Positions 1-28,523 of a stretch of 28,523 nucleotides of DNA are shown one piece after another; position 1 is the stretch's first letter; every line of letters begins with the position of its first letter. A program made the position numbers and the translations under genes. The notes beneath the pieces were generated by a model. That model saw only the letters and a program-made list of their open reading frames with translations, had not been told where the DNA came from and did not search any database. This DNA is from a virus, in the IMG/VR virus record IMGVR_UViG_3300027736_000189, positions 1 through 28,523 of that record. One strand, given 5' to 3'.

Positions 1-3000
1 CGCCCTTGAGTGCTGCCAGATGCGGTTGGTGGCGAATGTCGCCAATGCGGATGGTGCGCTCACCGCCAAACACCAGCTCGGCTATGCCGTTCTCTTTGAC
101 CCGGTAGTACGGAACGTAGTCGCCTTCACGCAGGAAGTCCCGCGCCTCGGCCTTGGTTATAGCGCCCGTCTCAGCCAAGAACTCAATCATGCCCTTGTTG
201 TAGGCGTTGTACCGCTCACGCACTTTTTCCAGTGCGCCCTTCAGTTGGGGGTTGGCTTCTGCCGCAATCATTGCAGCGTCAACTTCTTGCTGGGTAATAC
301 CTAAGGCCCCAAGGTCTAGCTTGGCCAGCCCCTTGTTGGCAGCACGCTGTGCAATCAGATACATGGTCGCCATTTGCATCTTGGCAGCTTCATTGCCGTA
401 CCTATCCGGGATGTCGCCTACCGCATCAAATACTTCCTTGGCGCTGTCTTTCCCAGTGCTGCGGATTCCTTTGAGCCCTTTTGCATCCTCGTACACTTCC
501 AACGGCCCATTGCTCAGCGCAGCCAGTGTCAACGGCATCTTTTGGTCGGCTTTGGTGTAGCTGTACATAGCCTGCTGGAACAGGCGGGAGTCGCCAAACG
601 CCTTGGCCCCCATTTCCATAACCTTGCGCAAAGCCGCCCGCATATCGGTCGTCTGCATCTCAAACTCAAGCGCGTAGTTTGAACCGCCCCGCATGGTTTG
701 CCACCAGCCCTGCTTCTGCGCTACGGTTCTTTGCGCCAGTTGGGACAAGTCATTGTCTTCGCCGTACTTGGCTGCTTTAGCAAACGCTTGCTGTTCGCCC
801 GGTTTGGCAAAGTACGTCTCCGACGGCATGTAGATTTTCTCAATCAAGTCCAGCGCTTGTTTGCTTGGGGGCTGATTGAACAGCCCCGCTATCCAGCGTT
901 TCAGTTTTTGCCAGAGCGACTCAGGCTTGCCAATGCCGTCCAAACGGTCGCGGAAGTCTTTGCTAGAGTTGACCTCGGACATGAACTCGTGCACATCTTT
1001 GATGCCGTACTGGCCTTTCAAATCCAACCGGCTTTCAGCCGCCTTGAACAAGTTGATGATGCCCTGCTTGGCTTCACGCTGCATCGGCGTTAGCTGGGAG
1101 TCCGGCGTGCGCATGGCCTTGGTGGTGGCAGCGTGGGTCAACTCGTGCAGCAAATCCTCTTCCGTCACGCGGTTGGGATGCATTGTGATTTTGTTGCGGC
1201 CCTCTTCGTACAGACCGGCGACCATCTCACCCTGATACTTAACGAACCGGTCAACGCCAATCGTAGTGCCATGCAAAAACTCACGCAGCCCCTTGGCACG
1301 TTCACGGATTGCCGGGGTCGAGCCATGCTTGATAAGCCCATCAACAACACCCATGATGTCGTTGTCCCGCACAGCAAACTTCACATCGTCATGCGGCACG
1401 GTCAGGTTCAACTCTTCCGCTTCATCCATCAGCTTGGCAAATTCACCGCCCTTATCCAGCTCAGCTTGCGTAGCTGCTTGCAGTTTGGCTTGGGCTTTCT
1501 TTTCCGCAGGGGTCAGCAGCGCTTGTTTAGCAAGCTCCAATGCGTTTGCTTTAGCGCGTTCGTTTGTTTCAGCCCGGTCTGCTACGGCTTGCGCTTCTTC
1601 TTTAGCCTTACCTTCTTTGGTGGCATTCAATTTTTCCAATGCAGCAACGGCTTCTTTTGTGGCCTGCTTCAGCGCAGCTTCTGCCGAGATGACGTTGTTC
1701 TCCAATACTTCCCGCGCTTCCTGTGCAGGCGACAGCTTTCGGGGCTTGCGGGCTTGGCTAAGCCGTTGTTGCCCGCCGGTGCTGCCCGCACCTTCAATAC
1801 TTTCAGCCGTACCCGTACGCATTGTCGAAGGCGCAGCCGACTGTGTTCGGGCGACTGGGCCTGCGGTTGGTGCAACTTTTACAATGCCTGCAAGGTTTTT
1901 GTAGTACTGATACTGCGCTTTTAACTTTTCAAGCTGCTTGTTGATTTGCGCAACACTCTTGCCTTGTTTTTGCAAAGCTTGGCCTTCTGCTCTCAAAGCA
2001 TCAAACTGGGCTTTAAGCTGACCCATTTTTTCAACAGCTTCTTGCTTTTCTTGCGCACGCTGCATCTGGTCAAACAGCGCGGTTGCAGATTGTGCCCTGC
2101 TTGCCGCTGCACGGCTTTCAGGTGTAGTCTTTTCAATGGGTTCAACCACAGGGCCGGGGCGCACAGACTGTGCTTCATACCCGGCAATCTCGGCTTCCAA
2201 TTTTTTAATTAGGTTGTCGGCGCGTTTTGTTGGTTTGTTCTGTTGAGCAAGCTCAGCACGTTTTGTTTTGGCGTCTTCCAACCGTTCCATAGCACCGCGC
2301 ATAGCTAACGCCAATGCTTTTTGTTTGCCTGTTGGTTGGGACACTTTGACTCCGGGCAATGTCTCGCCTTTTGCCGTTTGAATGGTTCCAGTTTGCCGCG
2401 CCGTAACCGCAGCCTGCATCTGGTTTTTCTGCTTGTTCACAGCTTCAGCGTTGCGCTTGGCCGCTATTTCGGCTGCGCCCACAACAGCGCGTTGCGCCTT
2501 GGCCTCGGCTTGTTTTTGTTTGACGGCAGGGTTGTTCTTTTGAAACTCCTGCAAGTCTTTAAGCTGCCCGTCCAGCAACTCCAGCTTCTTACGCTCAACC
2601 AACACCAGCCCATCCAGCATGGCTTGGGCAGAAAACTCCGCACCGTTGTAAGCTTCGTTCAGCTTCCCGTTCAGTTCTGATAGCCCTTGCTGCGCCGCAG
2701 CAATTTCTGCTTGCAAAACGTTTGCTTTTTCCAGTTCTTTTGCTAGCGCCTTCTGTTCACCAGCGCGACCTTCAATGGCTTCAGCAGCGGCAATCATCTG
2801 CCCTATGCGCGTTTGCACAGCAGCCAACTGCTTCTCGGCGGTATTCAGTGCGTCCTGTGCGTTCTTAATGTCCGGGGCGTACAGCGCAGCCCGTGCATCC
2901 ACTGCTTCCTTCTTGGCTTCTGCAAAGGCTTCCTTCACTGCGATGGCATAGTTCTTCTGCGCCTCGGGGATGCGCTTGTTCAACCGCTCGGTTGCTGCAT

Positions 3001-6000
3001 CAATGATTTTTTGGTTGGCAATAGCCAGCTTCTTGGCTTCGCCCAGTGCAGCGCGCCCAGCCTTGACCGCAGGGGACTTTTCAAAATTGGTTGCCGTGGC
3101 ACGGATGTGCCCAATGTCTTCCCGCGTTTCAGGGAACATCTGCTGTTGCCCCGCTTCACGCTGCTCTTCTGCGGTGGGGGTTCTTGCTGCCAGTGCATCT
3201 TTTATCGAACGCGCATCGCGCTGTGTCACCTGTCGGCCTGCAACAATGGCGTCAACAACGGGCTCAACAGCGTCCAAAATGTCGCGGGTAGCCTTGCCTG
3301 CATCCATGACATCCGCAGCGGCATTAAGCACATCACGGGCAGCGGGGCGCATGGCCCCCATCTTGGACATCTTGTTGCGCACAAACTCTGTGCGGCGGCG
3401 CAGTTCCCCCGCCAGCGTGGTGGCAGTTTCTCCACGGGCTTCAGCAGTCTTGCTGGCTTCTTCGGCAGCAAACTGGCGTTTCAATGGGCCTGTCTCTACG
3501 CGCTGCGGCGCACGCGGTGGGTTTGCAAGCTGGCTGCGAAGGGTATCCAGTTGTTCTTTGATGACGGCAACCGCAGGGTGGTACGCGCCAAACCGGCGCT
3601 CCTCCAACGGACGCAAGTCCCGCATTTCAGTCTCTGCGCCAAGGATGGTCTCGGCCCCCCGCACAATGGCAGGCTTTGTGACGACTTCAGTCAGTGCTTC
3701 ACGGCGCGGCAACGCTTGCACGCGGTTAATCCATTCGTTCAAAGTGTGGTGCAGTTCGGACGCGGCTTTGGTGGCTTCATCTATCGTTATGGCAGGACGG
3801 CCTTGCGCACGTCGAGCAATGGCGGCTTCTTGCAAAGCAGAACTTATATACACAGCACGGGCTTGTTTAGCACGGGCTAGGGCCGTTTCCAAAGTACCAC
3901 CGGCCATTTCACCTTTTTCTTTGCCCAAAAATTCATTAGCACGAATTTTGTTTATTTCGTCTTCCAAACGGGCAAGCGCATCTTGTTGTGCTCGGCGTGC
4001 TGCAATAGTTTCTTGTACGTGAACAGGGCCGTTTTCAGCCAATGCGTTTATTTGTTTTACCGCAAGATTGCCCCGCCCCAATGCTGCCGATGCTGCGGCT
4101 TGTTCGTTTGCCCGTTTTGCGGTGTCGTGTTCTTGGTCTGCTCGGTCAGCTTCATTTAGCAAGCTGTGCAATTTACTAATGTCGTTTACCGCCTTGTCAG
4201 ATGGAAGAATTGCTTCATTTACTTTGACAACCGGTTGTTCACTTGTTAATCCTTTTTCAAACAAGTGGTCTGTATAAATAGATAAATCAGGGCCGCTGCG
4301 GGGTTGCTGTTCTTTGAACCCTTTAGGGCGTAAATCCTCAAGCGCGTCGGCCCCTTCCATGAATCCCGACATGCGCATGTCCGCTGGCGCAACTTGTTGC
4401 TGGGTTTGCAAATCGGCTTGGCGCGTAGCCAGTTCCTGCGCCGTGGCTTTCTTGGCCTGTTTTTCTTGCTCCGCAAGCCGCATTTTCAAGCCGGACAACA
4501 AGTTGTTGTTCTCTACTGTAGACAGCGTAAATGCCGCATTACCTTCTGGTATGGGCGGTATCTTGACACGGTTTTCAACCAACTGCTGTGCCAGCTTGGG
4601 GTCTTGCATCAAGTAGTCAGCGTAGCTGCTCAAGTCCATATCGCCCGCAGCGCGGGCTGCGCCAATCTGCTGGGCGGCATAGTCTGTTAGCGTTGTATCC
4701 GCTTTGGGGGCCGGTGCAGCTTCTGTCTCATATAACGAGCGGTCAGCGCCCTTGCGTCCGCTGACCTGAATGCCTTCGCCTGCCCGGCTCTGCATCTGCT
4801 CCAGCATGTACTCCTCGGGACTCATGGCATCCCGGCGCTCTTGTTCTTTGGCAGTATCCAAGACAGACCGAACACGCCGATACTCCGACGCTGCCGCTTT
4901 GAGTACGGGGGCATGCTCTTTGAGCTGGGCGTTGATTGCCGCGTTGTCCTGCTTCTGCGCTTCGGTGAGCGGCTGCGTCTTTGTGGCCTTCTGAATTTGC
5001 GCTTGAAGGTCGGCCTTCACTTTTTCAGCAGCTTGGTACTCCGCTTCTTTTTCTTTGGCGTACTCGGGCGTCTGACGGCGGGCTTGCTCGACGGCTGCGG
5101 CCTCGGCTTTAGCCTGCGCATCGGTTACGGCTTGGGCGCGTTGGGCTTCACGTTGCTGAACATCGAACCGGCCTTGCTCTTGACCACGTTCTACGCGGCG
5201 ACCAATGGGGGCGACCACACCACCCAACACCGCACCGCCTACAAAGCTGTCAAAGTATTCCTGACGGGCTCCGGGGTCGTTAATCTGCAACCCTGCCTGC
5301 ATGCGCTCAAACACCTGCTGGCTTGCTTCGGTCAAGCCCTCAACCGTCAGAGCCTTGCCCGTGGACAGCATGTAGTCTACGGCGGTTTTTTTGAGCGCTT
5401 CCTTGGTGTAGTCGGCGACAACTTTTTCGGACGCGTTGATGCCAGCGTTTTGCAGAATTTTGCCTACACCGGGTATGCTGCGCACACCGATGGTTTCCAA
5501 GGCCGTTTGCGGGATGGCGGCTAAAGCGGCATTAACAAGGTTTGTATCACCCAGTTTCTTACCTTCTTGTACTTGGCGAGACAGGTTAGAACCAGTGAAC
5601 TGCGCTTCACGCGTCAATGCGGCTGCACCCGCGCCTACAGCGGCGGCAACTCCAGTACCCGCGCCCAACACAGAAGCAATAGGTGCGGCAACGCCCGCAG
5701 CAATTGGAACCGCCATGTAGGGCAGTGAGCCGCCAACTAGTTCGCCAATTTTTGTGAAGGGGGCTTCAGCAAAATTTTCTTCGGTTGGCTTGAACGTCTT
5801 GGCTTGGTACGCTTTCTGTTTGGCAATCTCTTGCTCAGCTTCTTCCAAACTGCCAATGCCAACTCGGCCTTTTAATGCGGCATAGTCTGCTTGAAGCCCT
5901 GCAATACCCGACTTGAGCGCGGGCATGAGGCCTGACTTGGGTTGTTGCTCTGGTGTTTTGGAAGCAAAGGCTTCCGGGTACATCTTCTGCGCGCGTGCGT

Positions 6001-6073
6001 AAGCGGACTCTGGCGTTTCCCCCGGTCTAACTGCCACTTGTGTGCCATCGGGAAGCGGAACGGTTTGCGCCAT
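1..6073 (-). CDS. Giant polyvalent / internal virion protein with zincin-like metallopeptidase motif (partial, C-terminus beyond window)
   Basis: The minus frame is open from the ATG at 6073 to the left edge, giving 2024 residues without a stop. A TTAAGGA ribosome site lies 6 bases before the ATG. Residues about 110-152 are a hydrophobic Ala/Gly/Val stretch. A segment with EGLTEASQQ follows near residue 243, a pattern typical of large phage internal or ejected proteins. Residues about 300-1600 are dominated by long Ala/Glu/Lys/Gln coiled-coil sequence. HELTH at residues 1643-1647 is a zinc HExxH motif, and HEFMSE (E1696, E1700) about 50 residues later could supply the third ligand, as in gluzincin-like domains of phage polyvalent proteins. 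Near the edge, a segment with DYVPYYRV and ERTIRIGDI resembles large-polyvalent-protein-associated domains. It is last in the visible operon. The likely role is a virion protein ejected with the DNA, with peptidase activity on host or phage protein; this is inferred. The ORF is certain, the family likely, the substrate unknown. Confidence 0.85.
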   Translation of the reverse strand, partial: MAQTVPLPDGTQVAVRPGETPESAYARAQKMYPEAFASKTPEQQPKSGLMPALKSGIAGLQADYAALKGRVGIGSLEEAEQEIAKQKAYQAKTFKPTEENFAEAPFTKIGELVGGSLPYMAVPIAAGVAAPIASVLGAGTGVAAAVGAGAAALTREAQFTGSNLSRQVQEGKKLGDTNLVNAALAAIPQTALETIGVRSIPGVGKILQNAGINASEKVVADYTKEALKKTAVDYMLSTGKALTVEGLTEASQQVFERMQAGLQINDPGARQEYFDSFVGGAVLGGVVAPIGRRVERGQEQGRFDVQQREAQRAQAVTDAQAKAEAAAVEQARRQTPEYAKEKEAEYQAAEKVKADLQAQIQKATKTQPLTEAQKQDNAAINAQLKEHAPVLKAAASEYRRVRSVLDTAKEQERRDAMSPEEYMLEQMQSRAGEGIQVSGRKGADRSLYETEAAPAPKADTTLTDYAAQQIGAARAAGDMDLSSYADYLMQDPKLAQQLVENRVKIPPIPEGNAAFTLSTVENNNLLSGLKMRLAEQEKQAKKATAQELATRQADLQTQQQVAPADMRMSGFMEGADALEDLRPKGFKEQQPRSGPDLSIYTDHLFEKGLTSEQPVVKVNEAILPSDKAVNDISKLHSLLNEADRADQEHDTAKRANEQAAASAALGRGNLAVKQINALAENGPVHVQETIAARRAQQDALARLEDEINKIRANEFLGKEKGEMAGGTLETALARAKQARAVYISSALQEAAIARRAQGRPAITIDEATKAASELHHTLNEWINRVQALPRREALTEVVTKPAIVRGAETILGAETEMRDLRPLEERRFGAYHPAVAVIKEQLDTLRSQLANPPRAPQRVETGPLKRQFAAEEASKTAEARGETATTLAGELRRRTEFVRNKMSKMGAMRPAARDVLNAAADVMDAGKATRDILDAVEPVVDAIVAGRQVTQRDARSIKDALAARTPTAEEQREAGQQQMFPETREDIGHIRATATNFEKSPAVKAGRAALGEAKKLAIANQKIIDAATERLNKRIPEAQKNYAIAVKEAFAEAKKEAVDARAALYAPDIKNAQDALNTAEKQLAAVQTRIGQMIAAAEAIEGRAGEQKALAKELEKANVLQAEIAAAQQGLSELNGKLNEAYNGAEFSAQAMLDGLVLVERKKLELLDGQLKDLQEFQKNNPAVKQKQAEAKAQRAVVGAAEIAAKRNAEAVNKQKNQMQAAVTARQTGTIQTAKGETLPGVKVSQPTGKQKALALAMRGAMERLEDAKTKRAELAQQNKPTKRADNLIKKLEAEIAGYEAQSVRPGPVVEPIEKTTPESRAAASRAQSATALFDQMQRAQEKQEAVEKMGQLKAQFDALRAEGQALQKQGKSVAQINKQLEKLKAQYQYYKNLAGIVKVAPTAGPVARTQSAAPSTMRTGTAESIEGAGSTGGQQRLSQARKPRKLSPAQEAREVLENNVISAEAALKQATKEAVAALEKLNATKEGKAKEEAQAVADRAETNERAKANALELAKQALLTPAEKKAQAKLQAATQAELDKGGEFAKLMDEAEELNLTVPHDDVKFAVRDNDIMGVVDGLIKHGSTPAIRERAKGLREFLHGTTIGVDRFVKYQGEMVAGLYEEGRNKITMHPNRVTEEDLLHELTHAATTKAMRTPDSQLTPMQREAKQGIINLFKAAESRLDLKGQYGIKDVHEFMSEVNSSKDFRDRLDGIGKPESLWQKLKRWIAGLFNQPPSKQALDLIEKIYMPSETYFAKPGEQQAFAKAAKYGEDNDLSQLAQRTVAQKQGWWQTMRGGSNYALEFEMQTTDMRAALRKVMEMGAKAFGDSRLFQQAMYSYTKADQKMPLTLAALSNGPLEVYEDAKGLKGIRSTGKDSAKEVFDAVGDIPDRYGNEAAKMQMATMYLIAQRAANKGLAKLDLGALGITQQEVDAAMIAAEANPQLKGALEKVRERYNAYNKGMIEFLAETGAITKAEARDFLREGDYVPYYRVKENGIAELVFGGERTIRIGDIRHQPHLAALKG

Positions 6074-26781: not shown

Positions 26782-27064
26782 AGAACACCGTCACACCGGT
26801 AACCGATGCGCTCAAAGCAAGGTACAACGTAGTGCTGAACTTAATCCCCTCACCGGGGATGTCGAACGTGTAGGTGTTGGGGTTGGAGTTACTGGCAATA
26901 TCAATCTCCAACAAGACCGCGCCGGACGACCCACCATCTTTGAATTGAATGGTCGCAGCAGTGCTTGCTGCCGGGCAAATAATCAAGCCCTTCAGGCGTG
27001 TTGGCCCGTTGAACAACGTACCCGCTGCACTTGCGTGCGCGCTCTTAACGTCTGTCTGCATCAT
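26774..27064 (-). CDS. Beta-rich virion / decoration protein candidate (96 aa)
   Basis: I choose the ATG at 27064, seven bases after AGGAG; a TTG two codons upstream would touch the ribosome site. The sequence MQTDVKSAHASAAGTLFNGP, then RLKGLIICPAASTAATIQF, then KDGGSSGAVLLEIDI, then IPGEGIKFSTTLYLALS and a final VTVFYG is an all-beta domain. I recognise it as common in aquatic phage structural clusters. Position near the start of the late operon fits a capsid decoration or head protein, inferred only from order and composition. Confidence 0.75.
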   Translation of the reverse strand: MMQTDVKSAHASAAGTLFNGPTRLKGLIICPAASTAATIQFKDGGSSGAVLLEIDIASNSNPNTYTFDIPGEGIKFSTTLYLALSASVTGVTVFYG

Positions 27065-27082
27065 AATCAATCTCCTGTAAAG

Positions 27083-27100
27083 CGGGGGCCGAAGCCCCCG
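27083..27100 (-). terminator. UUCG-loop hairpin between two structural genes
   Basis: On the minus strand the RNA forms a seven-pair GC-rich stem closed by a C(UUCG)G tetraloop, eight bases after the stop of the 163-residue gene. No U-run follows, and the next gene's ribosome site comes right after. A partial terminator, attenuator or mRNA-stabilising or processing hairpin is more likely than a full stop. The core 16 bases are identical to the hairpin at 28059-28074. Confidence 0.6.
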
Positions 27101-27107
27101 AGACTAA

Positions 27108-27599
27108 TTACTGCTGGTTAGCAGGGGGCGACTGGTTGCCGCTGGAGTCTTTGACTGCGTACTCCACGGTAATCTGTGCTGCACCGCCGCTGGCAGTTCC
27201 TGCGCAAGCATAGATGACTTGCAAAATCAAGTCGGTTGTGCCTACGTTCAGGATGGTAGCCATGTTTGTGCCCGACAGCGTGGTGGTTGCACGCCCAATA
27301 GCCAGAGGCGTCGTAGTAGCGCCGCCAACAGTTGCTAACGAAGTTCCACCCGAAGTCTGAATGGTGATGGTATTACCAGTAGTACCAGAGAACGCCGTAG
27401 TGATGTCGCAGAAGATGTTCGTAATCTGTGCGCCTGCGGGGATAACTGCAAAAGTGGTCGCGGTCGTGGTGTTAACCGTCATCGTGCCCGTTTGGGTGAC
27501 AGTGGTAGTACCGGTGTTCTGGATGGTTCCAGCAGTAGTGCCGGTGGTGTTTTTGACCGTGCCCAAGAGCCACGGGCCAAGGTGAGTAGCGAATCCCAT
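27108..27599 (-). CDS. Beta-rich virion protein candidate, first gene of long operon (163 aa)
   Basis: The ATG has TAAGGA seven bases upstream. The N-terminus (GFATHLGPWLLGTVKNTTGT) is followed by Thr-rich strands (TVNTTTATTFAVIPAGAQIT, ITIQTSGGTSLATVGG), with a longer loop and a final ITVEYAVKDSSGNQ. THLGPWLLGTVKNTTGTT is a start I recognise from aquatic phage structural proteins. There is no enzyme motif. It would be the first and so strongly expressed gene of the operon, which suits an abundant head surface protein, but this is inference. Confidence 0.75.
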   Translation of the reverse strand: MGFATHLGPWLLGTVKNTTGTTAGTIQNTGTTTVTQTGTMTVNTTTATTFAVIPAGAQITNIFCDITTAFSGTTGNTITIQTSGGTSLATVGGATTTPLAIGRATTTLSGTNMATILNVGTTDLILQVIYACAGTASGGAAQITVEYAVKDSSGNQSPPANQQ

Positions 27600-27623
27600 G
27601 ATAAGTCCTTACATACAAGTTAG

Positions 27624-27666
27624 GTACACTGGTCGGTATGTCGTCTGCCGGGGCAGTCCAGTGCAC
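27624..27666 (-). promoter_or_regulatory. Structured 5' leader upstream of the long operon
   Basis: On the minus strand a nine-pair outer stem (27658-27666 with 27624-27632, one G-U pair) encloses a 25-base loop that contains a small CTGC/GCAG hairpin (27645-27648 with 27653-27656). It lies between the candidate promoter and the ribosome site, which stays unpaired. Possible roles are mRNA stability, protein binding, or a recognition site for the neighbouring HNH enzyme. Confidence 0.4.
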
Positions 27667-27686
27667 CGGAAGTCCCGGATGGCTGC

Positions 27687-27714
27687 AATATACACTATTT
27701 TTGTGATGCATCAA
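27687..27714 (-). promoter_or_regulatory. Candidate sigma70-type promoter for the long minus-strand operon
   Basis: On the minus strand TTGATG (27709-27714) and TATATT (27687-27692) are separated by 16 bases, each with one or two mismatches from the sigma70 consensus. It would start a transcript near 27680, about 80 bases before the first gene. No other promoter-like pair was seen upstream of this gene string. Confidence 0.5.
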
Positions 27715-27718
27715 GTTT

Positions 27719-28096
27719 ATGCCGTACAAAGACCCAGCAGTTCGCAAAGCCAAGCACAAGGAGTACTCTGCTGCCCACTACAAAAACAACAAAGAAGTTG
27801 TGCAGGCTTCCTCAAAAAAGTCCCGGAAACAAAAAAGGCAAGAGTGGTTGGATTTTAAGGCGGCACAGTCCTGTACGCACTGCGGCTTCTCCCACCCCGC
27901 CGCCATTGACTTCCATCATGTGGGGCCTAAAAAATACAGCGTCAACGAACTCATAACCGGCGGGCGGTTTAAGCTGGCGTATGAAGAGGTAAAGCAGTGC
28001 ATAACCTTGTGTGCAAACTGCCACCGCATACACCACTACGAAGAACACGAACGAAAAAGGGGGCCGAAGCCCCCTTTAGAACCTAACACAGATTAA
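27719..28096 (+). CDS. HNH endonuclease, free-standing (125 aa)
   Basis: This is the only plus-strand gene. Two Cys pairs (C52/C55 in CTHCG and C98/C101 in CANC) form the zinc knuckle around an HNH core: DFHH (H66, H67), then LCANCHRIHH (N100, H102, H105, H106). The first 45 residues are basic (PYKDPAVRKAKHKEYSAAHY, KKSRKQKRQEW) and likely bind DNA. No strong ribosome site is seen. Its reversed orientation between two genes marks it as a mobile, probably homing, gene. Its 3' end contains the terminator of the convergent acidic gene, and the two stops share TTAA at 28093-28096. A packaging-associated HNH is less likely, since those usually sit by the terminase in the same direction. Confidence 0.87.
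   Translation: MPYKDPAVRKAKHKEYSAAHYKNNKEVVQASSKKSRKQKRQEWLDFKAAQSCTHCGFSHPAAIDFHHVGPKKYSVNELITGGRFKLAYEEVKQCITLCANCHRIHHYEEHERKRGPKPPLEPNTD
28056..28077 (-). terminator. Rho-independent terminator of the acidic protein gene, inside the HNH coding sequence
   Basis: On the minus strand a nine-pair stem (AAAGGGGGC with GCCCCCTTT) is closed by a C(UUCG)G loop and followed by a run of five T, 16 bases after the acidic gene stop. This is a classical intrinsic terminator. On the other strand the same bases encode the HNH residues around KRGPKPPL. Confidence 0.8.
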
Positions 28097-28428
28097 ACCT
28101 CTTCGGCTTCGTCTTCAGCTTCATCTTCAGCTTCATCTTCAGCTTCGTCTTCAACCAAGAGCCACTCACAAGACTCTTCGTCCAACCAGTACCAAGCATC
28201 GTACTCTTCGTCATACCAGCAGTAGCAGTTAGCGTCTTCGTCATAGAAGTACTCTTCGCCTTCAGTGAAGCAATCAGCAAACGCTTCAAACTCGTCGTCC
28301 TCGTCTTCCACTTCTTCGATGTCGGTGTTACCCATCATCTGTGCGGTTTGCAAGAACTTCAAAATGGACTCGGTAGAGTACTCAAAAAAGCCGCCATCGG
28401 CCAGCTCAACAGATACAGTAAACAGCAT
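28093..28428 (-). CDS. Highly acidic, aromatic-rich small protein (111 aa)
   Basis: I choose the ATG at 28428 because GGAG lies six bases upstream; a further upstream start would add 14 residues with no ribosome site. About 43 of 111 residues are Asp or Glu, with one Lys and no Arg. A short globular N-terminus (LFTVSVELADGGFFEYSTES, ILKFLQTAQMM) is followed by acidic sequence. YDEDANCYCWYDEEYDAWYW alternates acids with Trp/Tyr, and the tail is four EDEA-like units from a 12-base repeat. It has its own promoter candidate, leader hairpin and terminator. Charge and size suggest a DNA mimic or an inhibitor of a basic protein, but I recognise no defined family. Confidence 0.7.
   Translation of the reverse strand: MLFTVSVELADGGFFEYSTESILKFLQTAQMMGNTDIEEVEDEDDEFEAFADCFTEGEEYFYDEDANCYCWYDEEYDAWYWLDEESCEWLLVEDEAEDEAEDEAEDEAEEV
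28105..28152. repeat. 12-bp tandem repeat, four copies, in the acidic protein gene
   Basis: Four units of the form rgcttcrtcttc (plus strand, r = a or g) follow in tandem; they encode Glu-Asp-Glu-Ala on the minus strand. Repeat changes keep the frame, so the acidic tail length can vary. Confidence 0.85.
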
Positions 28429-28446
28429 TTTTAACTCCAAAAATAG

Positions 28447-28465
28447 TTGCAGCACCGCGCTGCAA
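28447..28465 (-). promoter_or_regulatory. Leader hairpin upstream of the acidic protein gene
   Basis: A perfect seven-pair stem (TTGCAGC with GCTGCAA) with a five-base loop lies between the candidate promoter and the ribosome site, starting about ten bases from the predicted transcript start. A 5' stabilising or regulatory hairpin is a possible role. Confidence 0.5.
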
Positions 28466-28482
28466 GCCATCCTACCACGCCG

Positions 28483-28491
28483 TCTATAGCA
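28483..28491 (-). promoter_or_regulatory. Candidate extended -10 promoter of the acidic protein gene
   Basis: On the minus strand TGCTATAGA matches the extended -10 pattern TGnTATAAT with one mismatch in the hexamer. No good -35 is seen at the expected distance. It would start transcription near 28476, about 48 bases before the ATG at 28428. A CGTCTA/TAGACG inverted repeat (28481-28486 and 28507-28512) flanks it and could be an operator. Confidence 0.45.
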
Positions 28492-28523
28492 GTTTGTGAC
28501 GTTTTTTAGACGTAAAAAAGGCC

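Follow-up and report, generated by a model that had tools for sequence, protein, structure and literature searches.

The virus record analysed here, a single stretch of 28,523 bases (the window), encodes on its minus strand, from 28428 to 28093, a hyperacidic aromatic protein of 111 amino acid residues (P0002). We interpret its gene as accessory and moron-like, organised for autonomous expression, and assign a probability of roughly 40% to the reading that it is an early-expressed, moron-like cassette whose protein mimics nucleic acid and acts against a host DNA- or RNA-binding protein. Such mimicry is plausible and the likeliest function of the protein. The coordinates given in the initial annotation were right; the gene lies on the minus strand.

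P0002 contains 43 acidic residues (15 D and 28 E) and a single lysine, with neither arginine nor histidine; the remainder includes 4 W, 7 Y, 8 F and 4 C. The predicted pI is 4.05 and the net charge about −42, which bears out the extreme acidity and near lack of basic residues first claimed for it. At −0.378 charges per residue, P0002 is the extreme outlier of the window, far below every other ORF checked, the next most acidic of which stands at −0.069. The coding sequence (28093..28428) is covered by three family alignments (A1, A3 and A4), and comparison with close relatives gave a dN/dS of about 0.12 over residues 1–92. Selection on the ORF is thus purifying, and the ratio marks it as a real gene. 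Two relatives (L008 and L009) offer an N-terminally extended start; the internal ATG that follows the leader is conserved and was preferred.

Three segments can be distinguished in the protein. The N-terminal segment (aa 1–35, 28324..28428, minus strand) was modelled by AlphaFold2 as beta-beta-alpha with a pLDDT of ~52–60; it is shortened or replaced in some relatives and absent from type-B and several type-C members. The core (aa 57–94, 28147..28260, minus strand), delimited by family alignments and AlphaFold2, is a predicted acidic and aromatic four-stranded beta-meander with strands at residues 60–63, 68–73, 78–83 and 88–91 (pLDDT ~78–84). Its consensus, EEYxYDEDxxAYxWYDEExDVWYWYDEExDDW, comprises four short strands with a period of ~10 residues, and Y60, Y62, C70, W71, Y72, D73, E74, E75, W79, Y80 and W89 are near-invariant in the family alignments. 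The low-complexity acidic tail with EDEA repeats (aa 95–111, 28096..28146, minus strand) is variable in length and mostly modelled with a pLDDT below 50. An independent AlphaFold2 model of a sister protein predicted the same meander at its residues 32–62, corresponding to 60–91 of P0002. Across the two models the meander reached a pLDDT of ~78–88 and the remainder was poor; overall, the confidence of the structure prediction is modest (mean pLDDT 63 for the window protein and 67 for its sister). Searches of the PDB with Foldseek returned insignificant matches only: the window model hit Polo-box chains, and the sister model individual blades of beta-propellers (E > 2). In BFVD, Foldseek found a single homologue (E 1.7e-5), an uncharacterised protein of an uncultured phage.

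Relatives were numerous among viral contigs. A scan with the single protein as query found 46 and one with a profile 134 close loci; 102 further, more distant loci belong to a sister subfamily that came to light by scanning relatives of the capsid and phosphoesterase proteins. Two scans of 84,980 cellular genomes matched short patterns only and confirmed no cellular relative. Three family members were compared by tblastn with the genomes of cultured phages and matched nothing; some matches could have been masked by the low-complexity filter of that search. Sequence searches of the PDB yielded nothing significant, with chance matches for the single protein and none for the profile. The window protein matched neither Pfam nor, at E<=0.1, PHROG. 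Among 45 relatives, 12 weakly matched phrog_21303, a group of unknown function (best E 1e-4), and two showed a weak, non-significant similarity to the OCRE domain (PF17780, best E 0.011). OCRE is a regular Tyr-rich repeat of short strands, and this aromatic octamer repeat resembles the acidic core without implying membership. By these searches, the acidic protein represents an undescribed viral family without annotation that occurs in many uncultured bacterial viruses.

The gene is framed by its own expression signals. A promoter −10 element with a TGn extension (TGG-TAGGAT, 28469..28477, minus strand) lies upstream, with no conserved −35; TARGAT is conserved in alignment A2, the start site is predicted, and the TG does not hold its canonical position in all members. 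It is followed by a 6-bp leader hairpin (TGCAGC-GCGG-TGCTGCA region, 28448..28464, minus strand) and by a U-run with a Shine-Dalgarno sequence (TTTTT-GGAG, 28435..28443, minus strand) conserved in both leader alignments. Downstream, a terminator-like stem of eight pairs, reported as ending in a T run (28054..28077, minus strand), falls within the 3′ end of the HNH gene that runs convergently. The transcription unit postulated for this gene is thus complete in sequence, with −10 element, leader hairpin and terminator-like stem; that it should be unlike all others in the window did not hold, since the cement-protein gene (27599–27108) is likewise preceded by a −10-like sequence and by a leader with RNA structure.

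In the 44 leaders of A2, promoter and hairpin are conserved and the six-pair stem is paired in 97.3% of cells, with 16 double-change cells; four of the six pairs are changed on both sides, and the stem scores higher than slid controls. The 30 sister-subfamily leaders of A6 are paired in 97.2% of cells, with 11 double-change cells and three pairs changed on both sides. Because compensatory changes occur in two separate alignments, the hairpin is read as an RNA element, and by this covariation it is conserved as RNA. A role as DNA operator is disfavoured by G-U intermediates in the stem. The hairpin, which a scanner lists as an intrinsic terminator, was rejected as such, since the U-run begins several nucleotides past the stem and enters the Shine-Dalgarno sequence. 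Rfam returned nothing meaningful for window positions 27000–28523.

A covariance model of the leader (R1) matches the window at 28477–28426 (E 9e-8). Over 739 kb of loci it recovered 74 matches, every one of them at an acidic gene, and in sister-subfamily loci 61, almost all of which fall at the acidic gene; L282 has a second, weak match. In whole records, 12 of 15 contained one strong match each; the remaining three were type-B phages, in whose members leader and N-terminal segment are lost and the gene lies directly behind the phosphoesterase gene. As far as the model matches indicate, the leader almost exclusively precedes the acidic gene family and is in that sense dedicated to it. As far as these tools show, this portable leader is apparently new within the open-access literature, which was searched otherwise than by family name. 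One locus (L254, 2019–2357, minus strand) combines the leader and the family N-terminal segment with a protein that has no aromatic repeats.

By the usual −10 spacing, the stem starts no more than ~2 nt from the predicted 5′ end of the transcript. In ompA-type leaders, a 5′-terminal stem shields the mRNA from 5′-end-dependent decay. The −10 element would be read early by the host RNA polymerase and the 5′-terminal stem could protect the mRNA in the same manner, so that abundant protein would be present early in infection.

The copies of the gene reside in two phage backbones. Backbone 1, that of the window, has the order major capsid gene, acidic gene, convergent HNH gene, cement gene. Here the capsid gene itself, the upstream gene in relatives, lies beyond the contig end, and only what looks like the tail of its terminator is retained (28508..28523, minus strand), where GGCCTTTTTTACGTC matches the U-tail and flank in L003, L005 and L018. 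The HNH endonuclease gene (27719..28096, plus strand; phrog_3106, E 5e-22) is constant in capsid-type loci. In backbone 2, replication and recombination genes precede the acidic gene, which is followed by a convergent or tandem metallophosphoesterase gene. That cluster encodes an Erf-like annealing protein, an exonuclease, an HNH protein of another family and MazG, and in L029 a primase-helicase; the acidic gene stands at its end, on the same strand as its genes. All copies checked lie in backbone 1 or 2 except four loci without informative flank or neighbour; the last set placed 75 of 79 loci there, with one showing an HNH gene only and three lacking an informative neighbour.

The acidic gene and the neighbouring enzyme gene overlap, or nearly so, tail to tail. 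This arrangement could mean that the acidic protein controls the adjacent HNH or metallophosphoesterase, sitting in its active or DNA-binding site as an inhibitor or timing factor. One or the other enzyme adjoins nearly every locus checked, two acidic-phosphoesterase pairs occur in L070, and the HNH protein is basic (pI 9.5). The two enzymes are, on the other hand, unrelated to each other. Searches turned up no relative of the phosphoesterase in four capsid-type records and none of the window HNH among eight phosphoesterase-type records. One acidic allele stands, almost unchanged, beside both partners, and some HNH or phosphoesterase genes have no detected acidic neighbour. We retain this explanation chiefly because of the constant nuclease or phosphoesterase neighbour, and consider it unlikely chiefly because one allele is shared across both. 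Were it correct, it would represent a new way of restraining phage-encoded nucleases.

The position next to the major capsid gene in backbone 1, together with a leader suited to high expression, would also suit abundant production of a capsid-associated protein, whether internal, scaffold-like or a decoration. This is quite improbable given that the gene sits at the end of the replication cluster in backbone 2 and is absent from phages with capsid proteins 88–96% identical. In L095, L098, L171 and the cultured phages Pag-Yong1 and DSL-LC04, the cement gene directly follows the capsid gene with no acidic insert. The slot between capsid and cement genes is occupied by the HNH gene in the window (27719–28096, plus strand), by an apparent GIY-YIG gene in L105, L124, L126 and L156 and by other genes elsewhere, and is likely a homing-endonuclease hotspot.

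The initial annotation had offered, besides a DNA mimic, a chaperone for the many basic proteins of the cluster. The charges are indeed opposite, several window ORFs having a pI of ~10, and a role as chaperone or counter-ion for these small proteins would be conceivable on that ground. The acidic gene travels without that basic-protein cluster, however, and recurs in phages whose gene content is very different, where it closes an early gene cluster; this proposal is therefore unsupported and very improbable.

Two loci illustrate the mobility of the unit. L029 (backbone 2) and L030 (backbone 1) have 358 bp in common at 97.8% DNA identity, and nothing else was alike in the stretches compared. 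The homology starts at the −10 element, at TGTAAGAT, and ends in the acidic tail, excluding the nuclease gene. The alignment indicates that the acidic unit is exchanged between unrelated phages; recombination within an already shared gene explains this exchange as well as insertion does. A quick tree of 127 sequences required 13 parsimony changes of backbone, a rough figure because the sequences are short. Comparison of the loci thus shows, at the level of sequence, that −10 element, 5′ hairpin, U-rich and Shine-Dalgarno region, ORF and nearby terminator together form one dedicated unit, autonomous in its signals, which has been transferred between unrelated backbones. Homing-endonuclease-linked exchange (PMC10448857) is similar in that an HNH gene stands beside the exchanged gene, near the capsid gene. 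It differs in that no relative of the window HNH was found in the phosphoesterase backbone and that the unit shared by L029 and L030 includes no nuclease gene.

Phage morons provide the closest parallel in gene organization: like them, the acidic gene has its own promoter and terminator, as read from the DNA, and occurs sporadically, outside the shared backbone, and is missing from the corresponding position in otherwise related phages. Descriptions of classical morons come from temperate phages, where the genes are expressed from the prophage, whereas no lysogenic carrier of the acidic gene was found in the 84,980 cellular genomes; we therefore speak of a moron-like gene only. A further difference from classical morons is the leader hairpin, which is conserved and has moved with the gene.

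Nucleic-acid mimicry is favoured as the function because the gene has an autonomous promoter, is accessory and has moved between lineages, because the charge exceeds that of Ocr and acidity is kept despite divergence, and because of the early gene neighbourhood in backbone 2. T7 Ocr (gene 0.3), a DNA mimic directed against type I restriction and BREX, is likewise a small hyperacidic phage accessory protein. It has 117 residues, 34 acidic and 6 basic, and −0.239 charges per residue, compared with −0.378 for P0002. The strong negative net charge extends over the whole of P0002, as in mimics of the Ocr/ArdA type, and is retained across the family although the sequence diverges. No homology to Ocr was detected, and P0002 differs from it in being richer in aromatics, in its predicted beta-meander and in the recurrent dedicated leader. 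PDB sequence searches and Foldseek against the PDB likewise gave no sequence or fold match to known DNA mimics. According to the proposed mechanism, inferred from fold and composition, the small acidic and aromatic meander and the acidic tail would mimic nucleic acid, with carboxylates standing in for phosphates and aromatic rings possibly for bases. The protein would then fill the DNA or RNA site of a host protein that serves defence or gene expression, candidates being a restriction or BREX-type enzyme, RecBCD- or SMC-type machinery, and RNA polymerase.

A DNA-mimic reading is compatible with everything found. Acidity by itself is no proof of mimicry, and the near-invariant Trp/Tyr/Cys pattern exceeds the needs of a generic acidic surface and speaks against mimicry; it could equally represent a protein-protein interface. 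The near-constant nuclease or phosphoesterase neighbour is left unexplained by the mimic model, and the type-B members, in which leader and N-terminal segment are gone, also count against the proposed cassette.

Transcription takeover would be one particular form of mimicry, with the acidic surface binding a sigma factor or the RNA polymerase of the host; the sequence does not tell it apart from mimicry in general. SPO1 Gp44, also a phage protein with a strongly acidic segment, documents that such binding occurs, its disordered acidic part acting as an ssDNA mimic that inhibits RNA polymerase (PMC8208478). Gp44 combines this part with a DNA-binding N-terminal part, whereas the acidic core of P0002 is predicted to be ordered, and no homology between the two was found. 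A search for a T7-type RNA polymerase in six records had no match; the control was silent too, and absence is not claimed. By analogy with Gp44, takeover may be entertained as a rather unlikely explanation.

More broadly, and only tentatively, the two subfamilies may belong to a virus-only superfamily of proteins with aromatic and acidic repeats. These would act as mimics of single-stranded nucleic acid, their genes passing between unrelated uncultured phages as a module of promoter, hairpin and gene and settling beside whichever nuclease or phosphoesterase gene the phage has. If this doubtful proposal were true, the superfamily would constitute a new and widely employed factor for counter-defence or takeover, with a portable expression signal. 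The family is in any case a sizeable unannotated one whose compact acidic and aromatic core is selected in two unrelated phage backbones, and its design is clear and testable, with the leader as a portable expression tag. If the protein is a mimic, its target would point to the host system whose blocking matters most to these uncultured phages.

Further observations concern the surroundings of the gene. The divergent acidic genes of L070 (1021–1395 and 3009–3344) each adjoin their own metallophosphoesterase gene, with an endolysin gene between them. In L021 (4724–4893), L022 (573–828) and L024 (4724–4893), tRNA genes for Pro and His, and in L022 also Trp, lie between capsid and acidic genes. 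At the far end of the window (2–6073, minus strand), an open-ended ORF of 2024 aa had no PHROG match at E<=0.01.

The cement-protein gene, whose product is 32% identical to the cement protein of phage DSL-LC04, is directly preceded by a leader (27597–27691, minus strand) with four helices and crossing pairs, i.e. a pseudoknot. Both sides are changed in 22 of its 24 pairs, with a covariation score of 0.49 compared with <=0.14 for slid controls; the pairing was drawn by eye from the same sequences, which favours itself in the cells paired and less so in the double changes. Rfam gave no match for it in the window at E<=1, bar one chance match elsewhere in the stretch, and nothing above gathering thresholds in five related loci. 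Four contigs contain one strong match to this leader per record, and in DSL-LC04 a weak one stands at the corresponding position. Translational control is suggested by some relatives, in which the final helix and the Shine-Dalgarno sequence overlap.

Two motifs recur near the −10 element of the acidic gene. In the sister-subfamily leaders of L201, L202, L206, L209 and L210, an inverted repeat (ATGTGG..CCACAT or similar) extends back to the −10, and a transcript starting at the usual distance would hold only part of it. Many relatives, among them L004, L015 and L260, have a TGTCA motif that precedes the −10 by ~11–12 nt; in the window the nearest TGTCA lies farther from the −10 than in those relatives.
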